A stretch of DNA of 64,000 bases, taken from contig JBBPUQ010000010.1 in the NCBI GenBank assembly GCA_038501195.1, positions 79,501 to 143,500 of the forward strand. The letters are read 5' to 3'. The notes beneath the pieces are model-generated. The model made no database searches. It saw only the letters and a program-made list of their open reading frames with translations, and had not been told where the DNA came from. Shown here piece after piece: positions 37,462 to 57,905 of this stretch. Position numbers and translations under genes: made by a program. Each line of letters opens with the position of its first letter. Position 1 is the stretch's first letter. The DNA comes from Nemania diffusa. Its lineage: Eukaryota > Ascomycota > Sordariomycetes > Xylariales > Xylariaceae.

Positions 37462-38791
37462 TGTGACGTTTCAGCGAAACAGCTCGTTGGAGGCAATGTC
37501 GTTCCCGTAGCAGTGCAATGTGTGTGCAGCTACACCGTATACACTAGCCGAAACCAAGAGTTCGTAGTCCAGTTTCGCTTGAAATCATTCGCTCTAGATT
37601 TGGAGACTGTAACCCTCGCCCGAAACATCTATGGGTGAGGTCTCCTTCCATGGGCAGCTTGGCGGGGAGGCAGATGCCAATGGCAAGGAGCCCCTATGTA
37701 TATACGTCATGACTCGCATCCCGGGTATTAGCTATTTGGACTTCGTTCTAAGCCATGATATCCCTGATAACTCGCCTGAATGGTTCACCTGGCGGGATTC
37801 CCTCCTTGCTGACATGGCAAGGTTAGTCTAATCTTCTATTATTCCTATGTTCAGCACTTACTATGGATTGCAGGTTCTTTGCTATATCATGGAAACACCC
37901 GCAAATTGTGTGCCACGACGCCCTCCGATCAAAATGCGAGAGAGAACTGAGATTATTGCTTTACCAGCTCGCTTTCGCCCTTTTATCGAATGGTCTCTTG
38001 ATTCCATACCGGCTATATTTTCTCTCCCTATGGTTTTACTTCACAGGGACTTTGGTGACTGCAATATTATCGTTGACAACGTATCCTGCCGTCTTATTGG
38101 AGTTGTCGGCTGGGCTGAAGCTGAAATTGGGTCTTTCGGGCTGAATCTGCACTCTATTGAGACAGTGCGTGCGACACTGCTACAGGGGGTCAAGTTGATT
38201 AGGTCATCAGGACCCTAGGCTTTTCATTTTTTTTTTCTATTTATTAGCTAGCAAGGAGATAGTTCTCTATTAGGGCGCATACGGGCCAGGCGCGGTGTCG
38301 ATGCCTTTGGCATCGACCGAATCGGTCGTTGCGCAGCATTTACAGTAGTTTTGCTACACCAATAATACTTCGATTGCTTTACCAGACTACTGTTTTTTAC
38401 TGCCTCAAATCTCTAGAAGTGATTGAGATGGCCGTGGCCAGTCCTCTAGAGTGCGTTGTGTGTATATTGCACGCTACGTTTCACTATTCAGCCATTTACG
38501 AGCAAATTTCACCTTAAGAACGGCTGGACCAGGTACGACAACTATCACATATTACAAGGGATCTTCTGGAGTGGGTTCCGTAGAGAAGTTGGAGGGTTGA
38601 GTGCCGATACTATTCAAGTTATCCATTCAGTAATGGTTATGCGTTTGCTATTATCGGCGGGCTTTACAAGTAGACTTGCAAATATGCCAGAGCCCAAACC
38701 GATCCAGGATAATGAGAGTGGCGCTTACAGTCTACTCGATCTAGATGGATTGCTACTTAATCATGCAACAAGAGTCGTGCATTTGGCATAA
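37462..38791 (+). pseudogene. decayed APH-type (aminoglycoside-phosphotransferase-fold) kinase gene
   Basis: Consecutive plus-strand pieces read like one fungal APH-family protein: LVGGNVVPVAVQ, EFVVQFRLKSFALDLETVTLARNIYG (37462-37638, ends at TGA), then VSFHGQLGGEAD and EWFTWRDSLLADMARF (37631-), then a clean 52-bp intron (GTTAGT at 37822 to CAG at 37873), FFAISWKHPQ, a frame change near 37950, DSIPAIFSLPMVLLHRDFGDCN, and after about 330 bp HLKNGWTRYDNY to the TAA at 38791. HRDFGDCN matches the APH catalytic HxDxxxxN loop, but the following metal-binding Asp of the usual DWAEAEIG is Gly (VGWAEAEIG). At least two frameshifts make it non-functional. Substrate unknown; fungal members are poorly characterised. 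Confidence 0.6.
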
Positions 38792-49215: not shown

Positions 49216-51718
49216 GGTGGGCGGGAGGTTGAGAGGGGCGGAGGCGGAAAAGAGGCGGACCGAGAGGGAAAAACCCCGAAAAAAATCGGGTAATGGATAA
49301 TTTAAGTCATGCGACAATGAAATATTATATTTTCTGATTGATAAACCGGTGTTGAGGTGGTTTTTTTGATGGTCAAACTATTGAGGGCGGACGACGTGAC
49401 GTTGGATTTGGTTTGGGGCGCAAATTTTCGCTGGCTTTTGCTTGGGGGACTCCTCTATTGTTGGGTGGTGCGGGCGTGCTTGGGAGTGCGGTTGTAGTGG
49501 TTGTAGTGGGCGAGTAAACAGCCAAACCAGCGGGCAAAAAGCAAACCAGACCGGGGGGGGGGCGGCCAAACCTTCCCCAGCCAAGAGGCAGCCTAGGTAG
49601 GCAAAGGAATGAGTGATGACTACCTAAGGGAAGTAAACAATGCTGGACGCACTGTACGCAATCACTGTACGGCCTATACAAAGCTGGCGAGAGAAAGGGG
49701 GACCACGTGATGACGGCCTTTAGGTGGTCTAAGCGTGAGACTATAAGGAGCCAATCAAGGATGAAGATTCAAAGGCAATGACACCTTGTCTCCTGTTCTG
49801 GGCATGCGTTATCGGCCGGCCAGCGAGATAAGGGGAGCGTGCATCTGATAAGGATCTCTCATTGGTCAAGACCCATCGGTTTTAGGCTCCCTGGTAATCT
49901 CCCCTCTAATTATTGACGCTACTAGTCGAGTACAATTTAGTGCTGTGGGGATTTACTTGCTCAATGACTACATAGGTATACATGGTGATGGTGTCCTCAA
50001 CTACCTAATCGCTGCATACCGCTACCTATGTACCTACATAGGTAAGACTCAAGAGGGACATAGGTAGGTATCTTACCCCGCAATATTCACTACTGTACAT
50101 GTAGGTAAGCACTTTCCTATAAGCGAGTAATAAATCGACAAAATAGCCCATATACCTACCTACTACCTCACCGATTCTATTTGCTGTGCTGAATACTATA
50201 GAGTCTTCACATTTATCTCAACTTATTCAATGAATACTGACGTGGTTACCTAGTCAAGAGCTTGCATTAGCTGAGCCTGGAAAGCTGCTAACAATATCGG
50301 CTTATAGATTAAATGCTGTGTTGAATGCCACAGTGAAGGCGACTGTAAGCAGTTTGGGGTTAGACCTATTCGCATTATCGTCAATGTTTGGATGAAACTG
50401 TACCTAAGGTGCTCAGCTGCGTCGACTACTCAGCAATAAGCTCAACAATAATATTTGCTCTGGGTTAGGTAGTATCATGCTACATACTACCTACTACATA
50501 GAATAGTGTATGCGTATGCATAAATGACCGTCTTACTGCTATTAATAAAAGAGTCTTCCTCGGAAATCTTGCACGTGTATACATTGATTCCAAGGATCAT
50601 AGATAAGATATCTAGGATACCTACTATGTAGTTATTTATACTTTAAAGTTTACAGCCTTGAGTAACTATATTTAAAGCAGATCACCACCTTGCTATCACC
50701 GACGGTTAATTCATAATCATACTCGATTATCTAGGTATTCTTCCACTGAATTTCTAAAGAATTCTCCGACCCAGCGGGGCGGTTCAAGTGGAGTGCGAAA
50801 CAGTCTAGTGGGGTGGCAAGGGTAGTGGATTTCAACAACGCATATATGTATATTAAAAACCTAGGTACTTACATACGTACCTTAAGATGCCGAACCTACA
50901 TATGTAGACAAATACCTTTCACAAGAATCAGTGTAACATATCTACATCTTGTCAGCTGCCTCCATTGTTACAACATTTTCTATATTTACTAGCTATATAT
51001 ATCTTCTCGTTAGAAGAGAAGCTCTGAGCAGTTCTGACCGCTCATGGCTGGTGGAGTGCTTTCCATTATGCCAACTATATAGATAAGCTTTCCCGAACTT
51101 GGCAAGCTAGATATGCTATGTGACACAATAAGCGGAATCGTTCTGTAGATTTCTATACTCTTTGTGATCCATGCAAGCAGTGGCATAGATGCGGAGGCTT
51201 GTAACCACTTATACATATAGTGTAAATAGGGCCATACATACAATAGACGCAATGTAGTATTACACACACAGCTTAGATCTGTTCTAGCTCTCAAGGACTA
51301 TTACTTGGCGGTTTTCATTCATGGTACACACGACAGCCGAAAGAAGGCAACTCCGGCTATTTTCAATTCCCCCTTTTCTATCCACATCTTCGAGTATCTA
51401 CACTAGGACTTTGAAGATAAATTGGCTCTTTCTTGGCCTGGTTTTAGGTAAAATACTACTTAGGGCTGACAGAAGGGACTGCTTAGCAGGAAAGTCCTCG
51501 AGTGGTTATCGGAATTCTCAACTACAGCAATATTTGTAATCACCATATCATAGTTGTTGCTATGACAATGATAACCTACACAGTTATTCAGGACCTAAAT
51601 AATAAGTACCTAGGTATTTTTTATATGTTACCACCCTACTAGAGGATCTACCCATGGAGCACCCTCTTCACTGCGTTCAGAGGGTGCCAAAAATCGAAGA
51701 CAGCCCAATGATTACAAA
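49216..51718. other. 2.5-kb spacer upstream of EPL1
   Basis: The proximal part (49216-49720) is GC-rich and contains a G9 run at about 49553 and a CACGTG at about 49704, plausibly the EPL1 promoter. From 49970 on the sequence is AT-rich with TACCTACATAGGTA-type words (49990-50170, 50850-50910). The ORFs at 51010-51294 (-) and 51321-51539 (+) show no conserved features. Confidence 0.5.
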
Positions 51719-52051
51719 CAGGTCTTAGCTAGCAAAAACGAAATAAAAACGCCAACTTCAAAGCTAAATACTACCTGTAACAAACAAACAAGTTAAATTT
51801 TAATACAAGCTCTATACTTGTGCAATTTAACGCTATCTGCCAATATATATAATATATAAAATAACATAGTTTTAAAATTATCTTAAAAATCAATTTTATA
51901 TAGCACATATATATATTATATATATTAACAGACACTGCTGAATTACATGAGTATAGCGCCTGTACCAAAATTTCACCTGTTTGTTTGTTGCGGCTGATAT
52001 TCAGCTTTAAAGTTAGGTAGCGTTTGCACCTTGTTTGGGGTGCAAACCCTG
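51719..52051. mobile_element. MITE-like element with long imperfect inverted arms
   Basis: The left arm (51719-about 51838) and the reverse complement of the right arm (about 51940-52051) align over roughly 110 bases. Shared blocks include CAGG at the tip, AAACGC, ACTT(C/T)AAAGCT(A/G)AATA, AACAAACAAACA, AAATTTT and GC(T/G)CTATACT. Most differences have A or T in the left arm where the right has G or C, as expected if repeat-induced point mutation hit one arm more. The centre is extremely AT-rich. The right tip itself folds (GTTTGCACC...GGTGCAAAC). A TA lies near each outer edge, but a target duplication is not certain. The short length and lack of coding capacity fit a non-autonomous DNA element. 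Confidence 0.6.
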
Positions 52052-52474
52052 TCTACGATTATTAAGGTCTTTCTACCTGTATTTGAAGTTGCAGTTTCCT
52101 AGTCTAGTCTCAAGATTTGTGGCTTACGTAAGAAGGTAATTAGCATTGTGGCGTAGTGGCGCAGTGCTATCAACTTCCGCTGTATGCATGGGTATCGCGC
52201 TAGAGGATAGGTACCTAAATGAGTGGGCTCTTGTCCCTCTAAGGCCCCCACGATCTCTAAGACAGACCCTCCAGCCCACTCAGCCTTACCTATCATCCTA
52301 CAACAACAGAATTACCTAAACCCAACCTCCAACTCAGTAACGAACCTTCATAACGAGCCTCCGGCAGCCGCTATTTCATTTCTCCTCCCATAGCTTCAGG
52401 CGACCTCACCCTTCACTCTGATAGAAAGAATCCATTGCCTGATCGTGTGACCTCTAGGAGGGTCTGAACACAAA
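52052..52474. promoter_or_regulatory. calcineurin B upstream region
   Basis: This stretch separates the MITE-like element from the ATG at 52475 and should hold the promoter and leader of the calcineurin B gene. The leader is CA/CT-rich (about 52290-52400), common in fungal 5' UTRs. No specific site is assigned. Confidence 0.45.
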
Positions 52475-53331
52475 ATGGGTAACAGCACTAGCATGGTCCT
52501 GGACAACATTGTCCAAGGAAGCAATTGTGAGAATTGGCTCCGTGGTAACTTTGTTTGGTATGCGCTGACAGGGATATCAATAGTTGATCGCGAAGAAGTA
52601 GAACGGCTAAAGAAGAGGTTTATGAAACTTGACAAAGTACGACGGGAGCCTTGTATGACCACTAAGATACCTATGCTAATAACTACTTCTCTCTGTTTAG
52701 GATCAAAATGGCACGATCGAGCGAGACGAGTTCCTAAGCCTACCACAAATATCGTCAAATCCGCTTGCCACAAGGTACCAACCCCCTTAGCTGTCCTGCC
52801 CATCAACCACCCTAAGCGCGACCGAGACATGCGCTAGGACTTATCAGTTAACGAAATATTCGTTTCTCTAGGCTAATAGCGATCTTTGACGAGGACGGCG
52901 GTGGCGATGTAGACTTCCAGGAGTTTGTATCAGGTCTTAGCGCCTTTAGTAGCAAGGGTAACAAGGAACAAAAGTTGCAGTTCGCCTTCAAGGTCTATGA
53001 TATCGACCGGGACGGCTATATCAGCAATGGAGAGTTATTTATTGTCCTGAAGATGATGGTAGGTAGCAATTTGAAGGACCAACAGCTACAGCAGATTGTG
53101 GACAAAACCATTATGGAAGCCGACTTAGACAAGGACGGCAGGATCAGCTTTGAGGAGTTCACAAAGATGGTTGAAAACACGGATGTGAGCATGAGCATGA
53201 CTCTAGGTGAGTTCTTTAACCATTTTTTTTATGCGGATGCCTTATTTGTGTTACCCGGAGAGCCAAGTGAACTCAACAAACATATACTTTGATATTGGAT
53301 ACTAATGTCTCATGTCACAGACCAATTCTAG
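52475..53331 (+). CDS. CNB1: calcineurin regulatory subunit B
   Basis: Proposed CDS join(52475..52526,52584..52636,52701..52774,52872..53206,53321..53331), 174 aa, the usual fungal length. The N-terminus [11 protein letters not shown] is an N-myristoylation signal. Four EF-hands are present: [37 protein letters not shown] and [13 protein letters not shown]; the linker to the last two has the family-typical [21 protein letters not shown] split. The final exon encodes only DQF plus stop, giving the C-terminus MSMTLDQF. The protein binds and activates the calcineurin catalytic subunit in response to calcium, upstream of Crz1-type transcription factors. The gene has five exons with introns of 57-114 bp, all phase-consistent. 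Confidence 0.96.
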
Positions 53332-54189
53332 GAGATGGAGAATGGGGAATCACAGCAAGAAGATGGCAAAGCACCAAACCCGGTGTTTTCATTCGTCTGC
53401 ATGGCATGTCCACGTGGGAAGAGAACTCGATGATATAGAGTATATTCATTTTCTGAGGCAGATTCATACACTTGGTAGGATTGGCCAGGAATTCAGGGGA
53501 TCGCCAAGTTGGATCCAGGATCTGTATAGTCAAAGAGGGGACTACACTGGAAGCTATCATCAAACAACCGGCCTTCAGGCCAAAACGACATCACAAACCC
53601 AAGTTCAAACTCACACTAAGCGCTATACCCACCTGTTACCCTTCCTAAGTTTTGCTTGTCTGCAGCACTAGATACATGAAGAGAAAATGTGAATATCAGC
53701 TATTGGGCCGCCTTCCCCCTTTTTCAGGACCCAATTACTACTTCTTCAATATGTTAGTGGCAAGTATTATGTTGCATATGGGAACGTAAAGGACACCATG
53801 TTGTATAGATTTCGCTCACTGGCTCGCCTAACAATTAAGTACTAGTAATGACAGTGTACCTCTCAAGTGAACCTGCAAGTGTATTTACACATTGGAGTTG
53901 ATACCTCTCATGTTTGCTAATAGGTTGCTAGAAGTACTTCCTGCTACTGCCACTCGACAACTAGGTACCACTGTATAACTTTGCAGTGCATATTTGACAA
54001 CGGCACCACCACTCTCCTATACCACTACTTCCACCAATGCTTGCCTTGTACTGCAATGAAGTTCACTTCCAGACTACATGTACTCATCACAACACACTTC
54101 CCAACACAAGAATTAACCTCCAATCCTTCACCTTTTATCTGTTCGACATACCAACCTTACTGAACTAATTCGAACTCTCCCTTATCACA
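53332..54189. other. spacer between CNB1 and the coiled-coil gene
   Basis: No gene is supported. The last 200 bases (about 53990-54189) are CA/CT-rich, like a fungal promoter and leader (CACCACCACTCTCC, ATTCGAACTCTCCCTTATCACAATG split across the start). Confidence 0.5.
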
Positions 54190-54791
54190 ATGTCGACAAA
54201 GCAAGACAACAACAGTGTTGAAGACATGGCCAATCTTAAACTAGCCGATCACAAGAACAACACTGCTGAATCCCCAGGCCCTGCCGCAGTAAACAACGAG
54301 GAACACGGCATCACAGGCGACATAGGAACTGCAAGCAAGTCTGAAGCAGCCCCGGAGGATGAGAGCACCATCCTCGAGCTCCAGAAGACGGCTCTCATGC
54401 TGAAGGGGGAGATTATGGAGATGAAGGAACAGGCCCTAAAGCTCAAAGAGGAGGCTTTCGTGGCCCAGGCAGACGCCCGTGAGTTACTGCTGGAGTCATT
54501 CTCTTCCCTTTCTAGTAACTTGAGAGCTCCCGAAATGTCTCGGGGTTATGTTTCGGGAGCATGTTCCGAAAGCTGTGGAACTACGCAAAAGAGTAATTAC
54601 TGACGCCAGCGGTTGTAGTGGAGATGAAGCGCGAGTGCCTCAGACAGTGGGAAGCCCTGCTCCGCCGCGGACAGATCTTCCAGACAAACATGAGCATGCT
54701 GTACACTCTGCGACAGCATGCAATCGACGCCCGCAAGGAAGCCGTTGCGGCGCAGGAGCAGATGATGGAGATGATGACTCGACGCAGATAA
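54190..54791 (+). CDS. small coiled-coil protein, interrupted by an introner-like intron
   Basis: Proposed CDS join(54190..54478,54619..54791), 153 aa. Removing the 140-bp insert (GTGAGT...TTGTAG) joins GCC C|TG GAG in phase 1 and continues the same heptad-like helix across the junction (LKLKEEAFVAQADA then LEMKRECLRQWEALLRR). Residues 1-55 are polar and disordered (NNSVEDMANLK, PGPAAVNNEE). From about 58 onward the protein is a predicted long coiled coil ending QEQMMEMMTRRR. Reading through the intron instead gives a non-helical tail and a stop, supporting the splice model. No family is recognised. It lies 860 bp downstream of CNB1 in the same orientation. Confidence 0.65.
54479..54618 (+). 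mobile_element. introner-like element, copy A (140-bp intron)
   Basis: The whole intron of the coiled-coil gene is about 90% identical to the intron at 56531-56671 in an unrelated gene. Just inside the donor it has GTTACTGCTGGAGTCA; the reverse complement of its 3' end has CAACCGCTGGCGTCA, giving imperfect terminal inverted repeats. The centre holds a perfect 10-bp hairpin stem GCTCCCGAAA...TTTCGGGAGC. It ends at GGTTGTAG followed by exon bases TGGAG. Insertion phase 1. Confidence 0.8.
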
Positions 54792-56142
54792 TCAGTTGCG
54801 CAACATACTAGACTCGTCTCCTGGCGTGTTCTAGGCCTTTTCAATGCTCTCCTTCCCTACCCTACTGACATCGTTTACGGCTGGGTCCTAACACTGTTGA
54901 TTGTCTACGCATGGCATTGGCCACACCTGTCTTGTTCTTACTTGAGCACCAAGACAAATTGCCTTAGGGATAAGGTCAGTGACAAAACAGACAAATACCT
55001 GTAGCTGGTTACTATGTTAACGTGTGATTAAAAACAGATACTTACTTTCGAGCATATTTGAGAGACATGGTGCGTTGGAATGCGGATTGGCAGGCGTCAC
55101 TAGGAAAAGGGATAATCGAGACAGAAGTCGTCGATTTGGTTGTGTACCTCCTAAAGCTGTGTTGTTTGCCGATAAGAAGGCAGGAGCAATCATTTCACCC
55201 TCATCATTTGCTGATAGCTAAAGTCACCATAATTCCCCAAGGCACCTTTCCCCTACGCACTTCCTGCTCTGTCTGTTGGTTTTGGTACCTAGGTATCATA
55301 AGGTTTGCCTGAAAATGGCCTTTTCGCAATAAATCCTGTATCCATGACAATCTTCACGATTAGTATTGATTTTCGTAACTCAAGTGGCATATAAAAATGC
55401 AATCTGTGCCAGCTGTGACGTACACTTGATGGTGCTTTAGAAAATCTTATGCTAGCAACAACTTCAACAGAGCTGTGGATAGGTACGTATCGGTCAGCCA
55501 GGCAGCCAATTATAATCCTTCCCGCCGACAGGATCCCGTCTCGACTTTCCCTCGCTTCGGCTCGCCCTTCCCCTTTCTAGGCTTTACCCAAATGGCACAC
55601 AATGAACCAATCAATGGCCTTAACGCGTCATCTCCACTTTGATATGATGGTGCAAGTCCAACTACAGCTAGCCACCGCCTCGGTTTCGAGCACTTGGTTT
55701 CCACTCCAAAGGCGGTTGTCAACCTAATAGGTGTATTGACTTACAAAATCTACCTAGAAAATTGACGTGCTCTCTGAATCCTCCACATGGCGTTCTGGTG
55801 ATGTTCTTACAAATCCAGCCAGCAAAGAAAGAGCTGTTACAAATCAGCAGATGCTGCAGCCTCCCCTATTGCTAGGCAGGGGAACGATACCTATCACGTA
55901 TTATCTTACATAGACTTGACGGAGTATACGACCGAAATGGCGGCGCAAGCAGTTTATATAAGGCGAGCGAAACTTGCTGTGCAGAGTAGAACAAATGCCG
56001 TTGAGAACCATCTTCCCTGAGGACTGCCTACCATAACTATCTTTAGCTTCCCTCTTAGTGATAAACGAGACATAGTTCGATCACAATATACAATAGTATT
56101 ACTATCTCTCGCATCTCAAAAATCACCGCTGCCGCCGCCAAA
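54792..56142. other. 1.35-kb spacer upstream of the FMN reductase gene
   Basis: Overlapping short ORFs at 55024-55312 show no conserved features. The last 150 bases should hold the promoter and leader of the reductase gene; they contain a TATATAAGG-like box at about 55955 and a CA-rich leader ending GCCGCCAAAATG. Confidence 0.45.
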
Positions 56143-57193
56143 ATGCCTTCCAAGTCCGTGGCCCTCATCACCACGAGCCTACGTCCCGGGCGCGTCGGGA
56201 TTAACGTGGCGGCCTTGGTGCAGCCTATCATAGAGAAAACGCTGGCGGCCGCCGATATCACTCTGAAGCCCGTCGACCTGCGGGACTTCAACCTACCTAT
56301 CTTCAACGAAAACGTCGTGCCCGCAAGTGAGCTAGCTTTCTCCCTTATTTCTAGCCTAGGATGTACACATACTAGCTCCGGCTCCGGCTGAGCAACTGCA
56401 TGCTGTTTTATGTCATCCCACTCTCATAGGGCGGGGGGGCGAGACAATACGAATGAACTAAACTTAACTGTTGATCGAGAATATAGTGGTCCCCGAGTAC
56501 GCGCAGTTCGAGCACGAACACTCCCGCGCCGTAAGTTACCGCTGGAATCATTTTCTTCCCTTTCTAGTAACTTGAGAGCTCCCGAAATGTCTCAGGGGTA
56601 TGTTTCGGGAGCATGTTTTGAGAGTTGTAGAACTACGCAAAAGAGTAATTACTGACTCCAAGCGGTTATAGTGGAGCGCCGAGATATCCAAGTACGACGG
56701 CTATGTACTCGTGATCCCGGAGTACAATTACGGCGGTATGTTGCAAGCTAAACCAATCTAAACCAAGGATTTCCTCTACACATAGCGATACCCCTATCCC
56801 CGTCATCCCGCCCTTCAGACCTAGCATATTATACTAACACGGCTACTTTGCACAGTATCCGGCGGCACTAAGAACGCTATTGACTATTTGCTGAATGAGT
56901 GGAAGGGAAAGCCCCTCGCTATCGTGAGCTACGGCGCGCAGGGCGGGTCCAAGGCGAGCGCGCAGGCCAAGGAGATACTCGCGGGCATGGGCCTGCGCGT
57001 TGCCGAGACGCGCCCCCAGCTCGCCTTCGCCGACGCCAGGGCCGAGATGGGCGGTATCCTAGCCGAGGGCAAGATCGCCGACGCGTCGCGGGCTAAGTGG
57101 GAGGGCCAGTCCGGCGAGATCGTCAAGGCCGCCGAGGAGCTGAAGGAGCTGCTCCTGCAGCCTAACGACGAGGCAAATGCGCCCAAGGCGTAG
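56143..57193 (+). CDS. NAD(P)H-dependent FMN reductase (flavodoxin-like fold)
   Basis: Proposed CDS join(56143..56326,56487..56530,56672..56735,56856..57193), 209 aa. Features: N-terminal beta strand and phosphate loop VALITTSLRPGRVG (FMN phosphate binding), LRDFNLPIFNE, then VLVIPEYNYGVSGGTKNAIDYL, the signature of the NADPH-dependent FMN reductase family, and a helix-strand C-terminal half (KPLAIVSYGAQGGSKA). The enzyme class transfers electrons from NAD(P)H to FMN or quinone-like acceptors, usually as a cytosolic dimer. The second intron is the introner-like copy B, the first (160 bp) and third (120 bp) are ordinary. The 3' exon is GC-rich. The start is supported by the GCCAAAATG context. 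Confidence 0.92.
56531..56671 (+). mobile_element. introner-like element, copy B (141-bp intron)
   Basis: The second intron of the FMN reductase gene. Compared with copy A at 54479-54618 I count 13 substitutions and one single-base indel over 141 positions; most are transitions. Terminal inverted repeats are GTTACCGCTGGAATCA and, from the 3' side, TAACCGCTTGGAGTCA. The hairpin stem GCTCCCGAAA...TTTCGGGAGC is intact. Splicing joins CGC GCC|TGG AGC in phase 0, restoring HSRAWSAEISKYDG. As in copy A, the following exon begins TGGAG. Confidence 0.82.
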
Positions 57194-57548
57194 ATTGGGT
57201 TTTAAAAGGCGAAGGGGGGTGCATTGTTATAGGCTTAGTTCATTTGAAGTTAACGTTATCTGTAGGTTGTTAGAGGGGTTCGTGAAGATCCTCGAAAGCC
57301 CGCGGTGCTTAAATAGATGAATCTATGACGCGGTGAGCTGGAGAGCAAGAATTTTAGTACATCACAGTATATGCCTGGCCTTTCGCAAGAATCTTCCGAT
57401 GAAGTCAAAGCATATGCTGAAAATCTTACCACCTTGACACATTACCTATTAGCGTTTAGCACGTGTAGTTCTGCGCTTTTATTACTATCTGCGAATGATG
57501 TTACCCTCCCTGCGACTATAATAACTCCGTATCACTGTTCACGTTCGG
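57194..57548. other. 3' region of the FMN reductase gene
   Basis: The first part is the expected 3' UTR. An ORF opening at 57371 runs through a hydrophobic segment (TLTHYLLAFSTCSSALLLLS) directly into the repeat at 57549, so a once-coding secreted or membrane-anchored repeat protein is possible. Not supported as a gene. Confidence 0.4.
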
Positions 57549-57905
57549 CGGATGATGCCTCGGGGGATGAAACCTTGACGCATGGACTCTTAACGAGCGA
57601 TGCCTCAATGAATGAACTATCTGCTTCGATGGATGGAACCTCGGCGGAAGGAGCTTCGACAGACGAGGAATCAGCGGACGGAGCCTCGATAGATGAATAA
57701 CCCATGGGCGAAGTCTTGGTGGCTGAGGTCTCAGCGGATGATGCCTAAATCTCGACGCATTGACTCTCAGCGGACGATGCCTCAATGGATGAACTATTGA
57801 CAGATGATGCTTCGGCGGGAGGAGCCTCAATAGACGAGGAATCACCGGACGGAGCCTCGGTAGATGAAGAACGTATGGGCAAAGCCTTGGTGGCGGGCGA
57901 TTCGT
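57549..57905 (+). repeat. degenerate 177-bp direct repeat of coding character
   Basis: The words TGCCTCAATG, GATGAACTAT, GAGGAATCA, CGGACGGAGCCTCG and GGCAAAGCCTTGGTGG or near variants recur with a spacing of 177 bp (for example TGCCTCAATG at 57601 and 57778). 177 is 59 codons, so frame is kept. The plus frame encodes Ser/Asp/Glu/Ala-rich units such as DEESADGASIDE and DEESPDGASVDEE. In-frame TAA and TGA codons in the middle (about 57697-57765) break it. Within each unit an 18-bp sub-repeat of GATGCCTCGGCGGA type is visible. Confidence 0.7.

Follow-up and report, generated by a model that had tools for sequence, protein, structure and literature searches.

A putative family of site-selective introners inserted seamlessly into genes of the fungus Nemania diffusa

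How new introns originate is an old question, and for the introners of ascomycetes, repeated introns found in unrelated genes, it is disputed whether they move by an RNA or a DNA route. The symmetric stwintrons of the Xylariales and their derived introns are reported to insert seamlessly, at positions that look random (PMC12403724), and the ascomycete introner families of a wider survey are reported to have neither terminal inverted repeats (TIRs) nor target-site duplications (TSDs) (PMC9860276). Here we describe two introns, copies A and B, that lie in neighbouring, unrelated genes of Nemania diffusa within a stretch of 64,000 nucleotides (nt) (assembly GCA_038501195.1, contig JBBPUQ010000010.1, forward strand; hereafter the window, which is C10:79501-143500 in a 16-contig, 55.6-Mb assembly). 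They belong to a family, F1, of at least 60 copies spread over 10 contigs in unrelated genes, and it is very probable that F1 is an introner family whose insertion is site-selective and seamless. The family offers identical young copies, a simple and near-fixed target, and a sister family, F2, that has a related repeat but another flank; the route of movement can therefore be tested, and the birth of introns and their choice of site are open to direct study in F1.

In design F1 is similar to the symmetric introns of the Hypoxylaceae and Xylariaceae, and it is to that extent a known kind of element. Like the sister stwintrons and cropped sister introns of the same fungal order, it consists of short introns repeated in unrelated genes (PMC12403724, PMC9024468), and, as reported for those introns, insertion is seamless and without TSD, the elements have internal symmetry and near-terminal inverted repeats, and shorter forms arise by internal deletion. 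Unlike a stwintron, F1 is a canonical intron that needs no G before its donor: the preceding base is mostly C or A (43/60), and there is no second donor nested after a leading G, as the GGT criterion for a [D1,2] stwintron demands. The arms of F1 also differ from the AU-rich stwintron repeat NTIRE-10, GUAUAAAAAC, a comparison made through the NTIRE-10 letters given in the text of that work, and the strong bias to TGG (40/60) contrasts with the seemingly random stwintron flanks. With the introners of the survey (PMC9860276) F1 shares similarity that reaches both splice boundaries, a bias to genes and a copy number of at least five, and it departs from them in having, less than 20 nt from either end, an extended inverted repeat, and in its near-fixed downstream flank. 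The introner-like elements of Dothideomycetes are likewise near-identical, recently gained introns in unrelated genes of filamentous ascomycetes; the F1 host is instead a xylarialean sordariomycete, and the accessible part of that account mentions no target motif (PMC4457414). Spy DNA transposons resemble F1 in combining a fixed target with the lack of a TSD, but their target is AT-rich, they have a DDE transposase, for which F1 has no linked counterpart, and the 54 Spy families are not reported as introns in what was available of the source (PMC4482050). From TIR DNA transposons and miniature inverted-repeat transposable elements in general F1 differs in having no TSD and in having repeats that are not at the very ends. 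No target-specific ascomycete introner family was found in the literature; supplements and subscription journals lay outside that search, and an earlier description is possible.

The first-pass annotation had proposed introner-like elements on the ground that the only intron of a coiled-coil gene and the second intron of an FMN reductase gene are near-identical and bounded exactly by their splice sites, and this observation is borne out. Aligned from end to end, the two introns differ by 13 mismatches and 1 gap (90.07% identity, E ~1e-48), the similarity is confined to the introns and stops at the splice sites, and the phases are 1 and 0 as proposed, the joined exons giving open frames of 153 and 209 amino acids (aa). 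Copy B is nearer to two copies on other contigs (L013 and L007, 0.964) than to copy A (0.907), and the nearest relative of A is L002. A, B and a 127-nt form served as BLAST queries, the best 40 candidates being scored for each, and in all the family comprises 60 copies, which is a lower bound; L005 and L011 were excluded from the count because L032 and L031 are longer versions of these loci. With up to 3 mismatches allowed, a 22-nt core pattern occurs at 54 places (1 for a reversed control), and the 29-nt and 27-nt patterns of the 5' and 3' ends occur at 51 and 52 places (controls 0); every one of these places falls inside the 60 copies. Two of the most divergent copies, used as queries with the best 40 candidates scored each, yielded no further places. 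The expectation of many copies in genes is thus borne out, and the introner-like interpretation is supported by dispersed copies with unrelated flanks and splice sites within the repeat in 60/60.

Most copies are 140 nt (31 copies) or 127 nt (14 copies) long, and mean pairwise identity is 0.906 (minimum 0.754). Six copies of 127 nt, one each on C2, C3, C5, C8, C9 and C10, are identical, which points to recent activity. One copy of 74 nt (L061) has lost its middle and is still followed directly by TGG; another (L037) has lost most of its 5' repeat arm. When 300 nt on each side were compared, only 6 of 1770 copy pairs had similar flanks (E <= 1e-3): three are accounted for by L009 and L029, whose loci overlap (they are 186 bp apart), one reflects an F2 element, one a pair of HET paralogs at 67% and one a weak F3-like match. 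None of the six is a duplication carrying an F1 element, and the unrelated flanks exclude segmental duplication as the source of the family.

Each of the 60 copies begins with GT and ends with AG, so that both splice sites are within the repeat in 60/60, in agreement with the exact ends claimed earlier; for seven copies (L037, L046, L050, L059, L060, L061 and L062) the ends were set by hand from the sequence. A YTRAY branch-like motif is likewise present in 60/60, and in 57 of them its A is 15 nt upstream of the final base. The phases are distributed 41:15:4 over the 60 copies (L062 is in phase 1 and is not a TGG copy), and the joined exons are open for at least 60 nt on both sides in the chosen frame in 52/60, the frames of L021 and L041 having been chosen by hand. 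A Pfam scan of the sense translations of 40 of the 60 copies found a domain spanning the junction in 25, above the curated cut-off in 20 and below it in the remaining five (L013, L034, L040, L043 and L052), and a domain on one side only in 5. These features suggest that F1 copies would be removed by splicing. Several points weigh on the other side. One copy (L056) is flanked on either side by stops in every frame and looks non-coding; in seven more (L018, L024, L026, L029, L033, L051 and L054) the open stretch on one side is shorter than 60 nt; an open frame is weak evidence in a GC-rich genome, where 41/45 sense joins pass and so do 30/45 antisense joins; and for 10/40 of the copies scanned there is no Pfam domain.

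Comparison with homologs suggests that the new introns would have been made in formerly continuous coding sequence. Seamlessness was judged from homolog protein alignments in three genes. At the FMN reductase junction the next residue is W in 120/120 homologs among the matches listed, in a gene whose top listed homologs come from Xylariaceae and related fungi (Xylariaceae sp. AK1471, 85%). In the GST host of L043, where the junction is in phase 1 (A|TGG), the following residue is M in 44/44 homologs, and of the 120 homologs of an MFS host 117 have W there and the other 3 have F; the GST and MFS homologs are gap-free within 6 residues of the junction. The GST host has 99% identity over 76% of the query to a Nemania diffusa protein. 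The CBM1 junction of L021 aligns without gaps to the three PDB chains listed, with W in two and Y in one. Against PDB the host of L020 keeps its W, although the alignment has a gap of two residues shortly upstream of it, and for the hosts of L047 (a zinc-dehydrogenase) and L039 (GH35) PDB comparisons were uninformative on the junction. Paralogs within the genome point the same way. In the HET domain two copies, L010 and L025 (elements at 1501-1640), share one codon boundary, before TGC, through which 13 other HET motifs of the genome run uninterrupted. The two elements agree at 131/140 positions, and because each has closer relatives elsewhere, they suggest two separate, parallel insertions at one site.

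Insertion of F1 is site-selective, mostly before TGG or TGC, a feature that the first-pass annotation had not noted, any more than the near-terminal inverted repeat or F2. Of the 60 downstream exons, 58 have T as their first base, 51 open with TG and 40 with TGG, the trinucleotides being TGG 40, TGC 8, TGA 3, TCC 2, TAC 2, TAG 2, CAC 1, TTG 1 and ATG 1, and TGG accounts for 2.0% of positions in the surrounding exons. The upstream flank is weak, with a pyrimidine at -2 in 45/60 and A or C at -1 in 43/60, and AG precedes the donor in 0/60. No TSD was detected: in 58 copies, direct repeats were not in excess on either side in any register from -6 to +6, and in the three genes compared with homologs the homologs display the unoccupied site directly. 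TGG follows 27/35 copies within 5% of the consensus and 13/25 older ones, and 32/40 TGG copies are in phase 0, as against 39% of exon TGGs (p 2e-7).

The flank comparison also exposed the second family, F2, which has 21 places (21 candidates, all scored) and a length of 156-158 nt in the 15 copies measured. It shares a repeat core with F1, CGCTGGAGTC...GACTCCAG near the ends, and follows a different flank: in the 16 of 21 places that were read the upstream exon ends in CCAG in 11, ATAG in 2 and CCAA, GTCG and ATGG in 1 each, and the downstream exon begins with G in 12/16. Elements of the two families can be close neighbours, one F2 copy lying 81 nt after the F1 copy in L015 and another 141 nt before the F1 copy in L002. 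That F2 might be a reversed F1 was considered and rejected, the same-polarity alignment being the better one (global z 2.9 vs 1.3). Since F1 and F2 share one spliceosome yet use different flanks, the element itself or a dedicated enzyme probably specifies the insertion site.

The arms of F1, ACCGCTGGAGTCA/TGACTCCAGCGGT, form a GC-rich, 13-nt near-terminal inverted repeat that is perfect in the consensus and is set in by 7 nt from the 5' end and by 5 nt from the 3' end. The predicted fold of the consensus (-53.2 kcal/mol, z -5.3) has a near-terminal stem of 13 nt and a hairpin at its centre, and the consensus is similar to its reverse complement (symmetry z 4.5). Single sequences give z of -2.6 for copy A, -2.9 for copy B and -4.9 for the 127-nt form. 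A fold is predicted for the reverse complement too (z -6.1), and most changes in the stem affect one side, each pair being kept in 48 to 57 of 57 to 59 copies; for these two reasons the fold does not distinguish an RNA stem from a DNA repeat. Direct pair counts revealed no covariation in the stem, RNAalifold predicted hardly any structure for the 60 copies together (-2.5 kcal/mol), probably owing to the gaps of the 74-nt copy, and window 51500-57900 had no Rfam match at a threshold of E 0.1.

In the mechanism that we propose, F1 would be a mobile unit, usually of 127 or 140 nt, and at the same time a spliceosomal intron in full. Each new copy would enter the sense strand of a gene, mostly before TGG or TGC, with host bases neither added nor removed, and would form a new intron at once. 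It may move through the excised intron RNA, by reverse splicing into an mRNA, reverse transcription and recombination; alternatively the intron RNA could be captured at a break. The landing site would be set by the element and not by the spliceosome alone. RNA-mediated insertion, which we favour slightly over transposition of DNA, has in our judgement about an even chance of being the route. It is supported by the exact intron ends, by the sense orientation and mostly coding location (52/60) and by the lack of a TSD, and a search with the end patterns, allowing 3 mismatches, found no other genomic place with F1 ends. Two points speak against an RNA route. Reverse splicing is not known to have a strong target motif. 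In addition, 20/60 F1 copies are on C10 (4.2 expected), 13/60 of them in its first 1.05 Mb (1.1 expected), a hot region that also holds 3/21 F2 places (0.4 expected, p 0.007), and this clustering counts against the RNA route because that route does not predict it. Local hopping was rejected as the cause of the cluster, the nearest relatives not being on the same contig (p 0.91).

The most serious competitor, which we hold to be quite possible if short of an even bet, is that F1 is a non-autonomous inverted-repeat DNA transposon that enters CTGG/CCAG-like sites without TSD, the surviving copies being those that splice. A near-terminal repeat that is perfect in the consensus and a fixed, one-sided target would suit such an element, as would the concentration of F1, and mildly of F2, on C10 with nearest relatives not on the same contig, and in 11/16 places read the F2 element, whose repeat core is that of F1, comes after CCAG, which is CTGG on the opposite strand. 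Helitrons and IS200/IS605 are transposons of such a kind. A further precedent is offered by the Spy elements, which are reported to lack a TSD and to prefer AAATTT (PMC4482050), and gene bias is also reported for DNA-type introners (PMC9860276). Against a DNA route stand the lack of a TSD in every register considered, the position of the repeats 5 to 7 nt inside the ends, and the failure to find any longer element with F1 ends within 3 mismatches, more diverged ends not having been sought. Only 1/60 copies looks non-coding, and none was seen antisense to a recognised domain, the Pfam scan covering sense frames; on the guess that coding, sense sites make up about 30% of the viable TGG sites, 52/60 would be very unlikely without targeting. 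The F2 flank, moreover, is only partly independent, since CAG|G is the usual exon context of introns; beyond that context, CC precedes AG in 9.6% of cases in the surrounding exons and in 10/12 in F2 (p 4e-9; L071 excluded).

One could imagine that the intron picks its landing site by pairing of the nearest repeat arm with the exon flank, CCA with TGG in F1 and CTGG with CCAG in F2, a model that the short motifs invite and that we consider unlikely. Were it true, spliceosomal introns would have an equivalent of the exon-binding sequences that group II introns use, and it would explain why the complementary flanks lie on opposite sides in F1 and F2 despite one spliceosome.

Less probable still is that TGG is typical of the introns of this genome as a whole, or has been retained by selection on splicing, and so says nothing about insertion. 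The phase-0 excess of TGG copies does hint at a filter on coding context, and the single-copy first intron of the FMN reductase gene likewise precedes TGG. Acceptor-like sites outside F1, however, precede TGG in 6/300 as against 1.2% at other YAGs (p 0.17, a crude figure from unverified introns), the bias is retained in young copies (27/35), and the F2 introns of the same genome are not before TGG. That the likeness of A and B results from segmental duplication, gene conversion or a transposon entering pre-existing introns can be all but dismissed, in spite of the 2 kb between A and B and the 52 bp between L009 and L029 within one gene, because the F1 copies are dispersed; the flanks are also unrelated, the repeat stops at the splice sites in 60 copies, and both A and B have closer relatives than each other. 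The first-pass annotation had named two copies only, with a segmental duplication or gene conversion over the flanks, as one outcome that would overturn its claim, and the genome holds instead at least 60 copies.

Table 1. Features of the two F1 copies and their hosts (window positions) and of F2 (locus positions)
Feature	Position	Strand	Remarks
F1 introner copy A	54479..54618	+	140 nt, phase 1, in coiled-coil-like open reading frame
F1 introner copy B	56531..56671	+	141 nt, phase 0, FMN reductase gene intron 2
Near-terminal inverted repeat, 5' arm, copy A	54486..54498	+	
Near-terminal inverted repeat, 3' arm, copy A	54601..54613	+	
Near-terminal inverted repeat, 5' arm, copy B	56538..56550	+	
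Near-terminal inverted repeat, 3' arm, copy B	56653..56666	+	one extra base
Central hairpin, copy A	54526..54560	+	predicted, 13-bp stem
Branch-point-like CTGAC, copy A	54600..54604	+	
Branch-point-like CTGAC, copy B	56652..56656	+	
Target TGG directly after copy A	54619..54621	+	
Target TGG directly after copy B	56672..56674	+	Trp codon; Trp in 120/120 homologs among the matches listed
Host open reading frame of copy A	54190..54791	+	exons 54190-54478 + 54619-54791; 153 aa; coiled-coil-like by inspection
Host gene of copy B, NADPH-dependent FMN reductase	56143..57193	+	exons 56143-56326, 56487-56530, 56672-56735, 56856-57193; 209 aa
F2 copies	L015:1722-1877 (+); L002:1782-1939 (-); L041 from 1040 (+); L063-L075		

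Some further introns and repeats were seen. Two introns, at L051:613-758 (-) and downstream of the F1 copy of L020, resemble old relatives of F1 and are followed by TGC and TGG. The first of them, the upstream intron of L051, was tried as the seed of a third family and rejected, the genome search giving 3 places only, one of them partial and one at 70%. Intron 1 of the FMN reductase gene (window 56327-56486), with TGG directly after it, has no second copy in the genome. Elsewhere in the window there is an AT-rich imperfect palindrome of ~260 bp, 72% self-complementary, at 51754-52014; a degenerate direct repeat of ~180 bp with 78% identity at 57545-57894, just 3' of the FMN reductase gene; and a 150-bp stretch at 38338-38487 that is 76% identical to L016:2709-2858 on the same contig.

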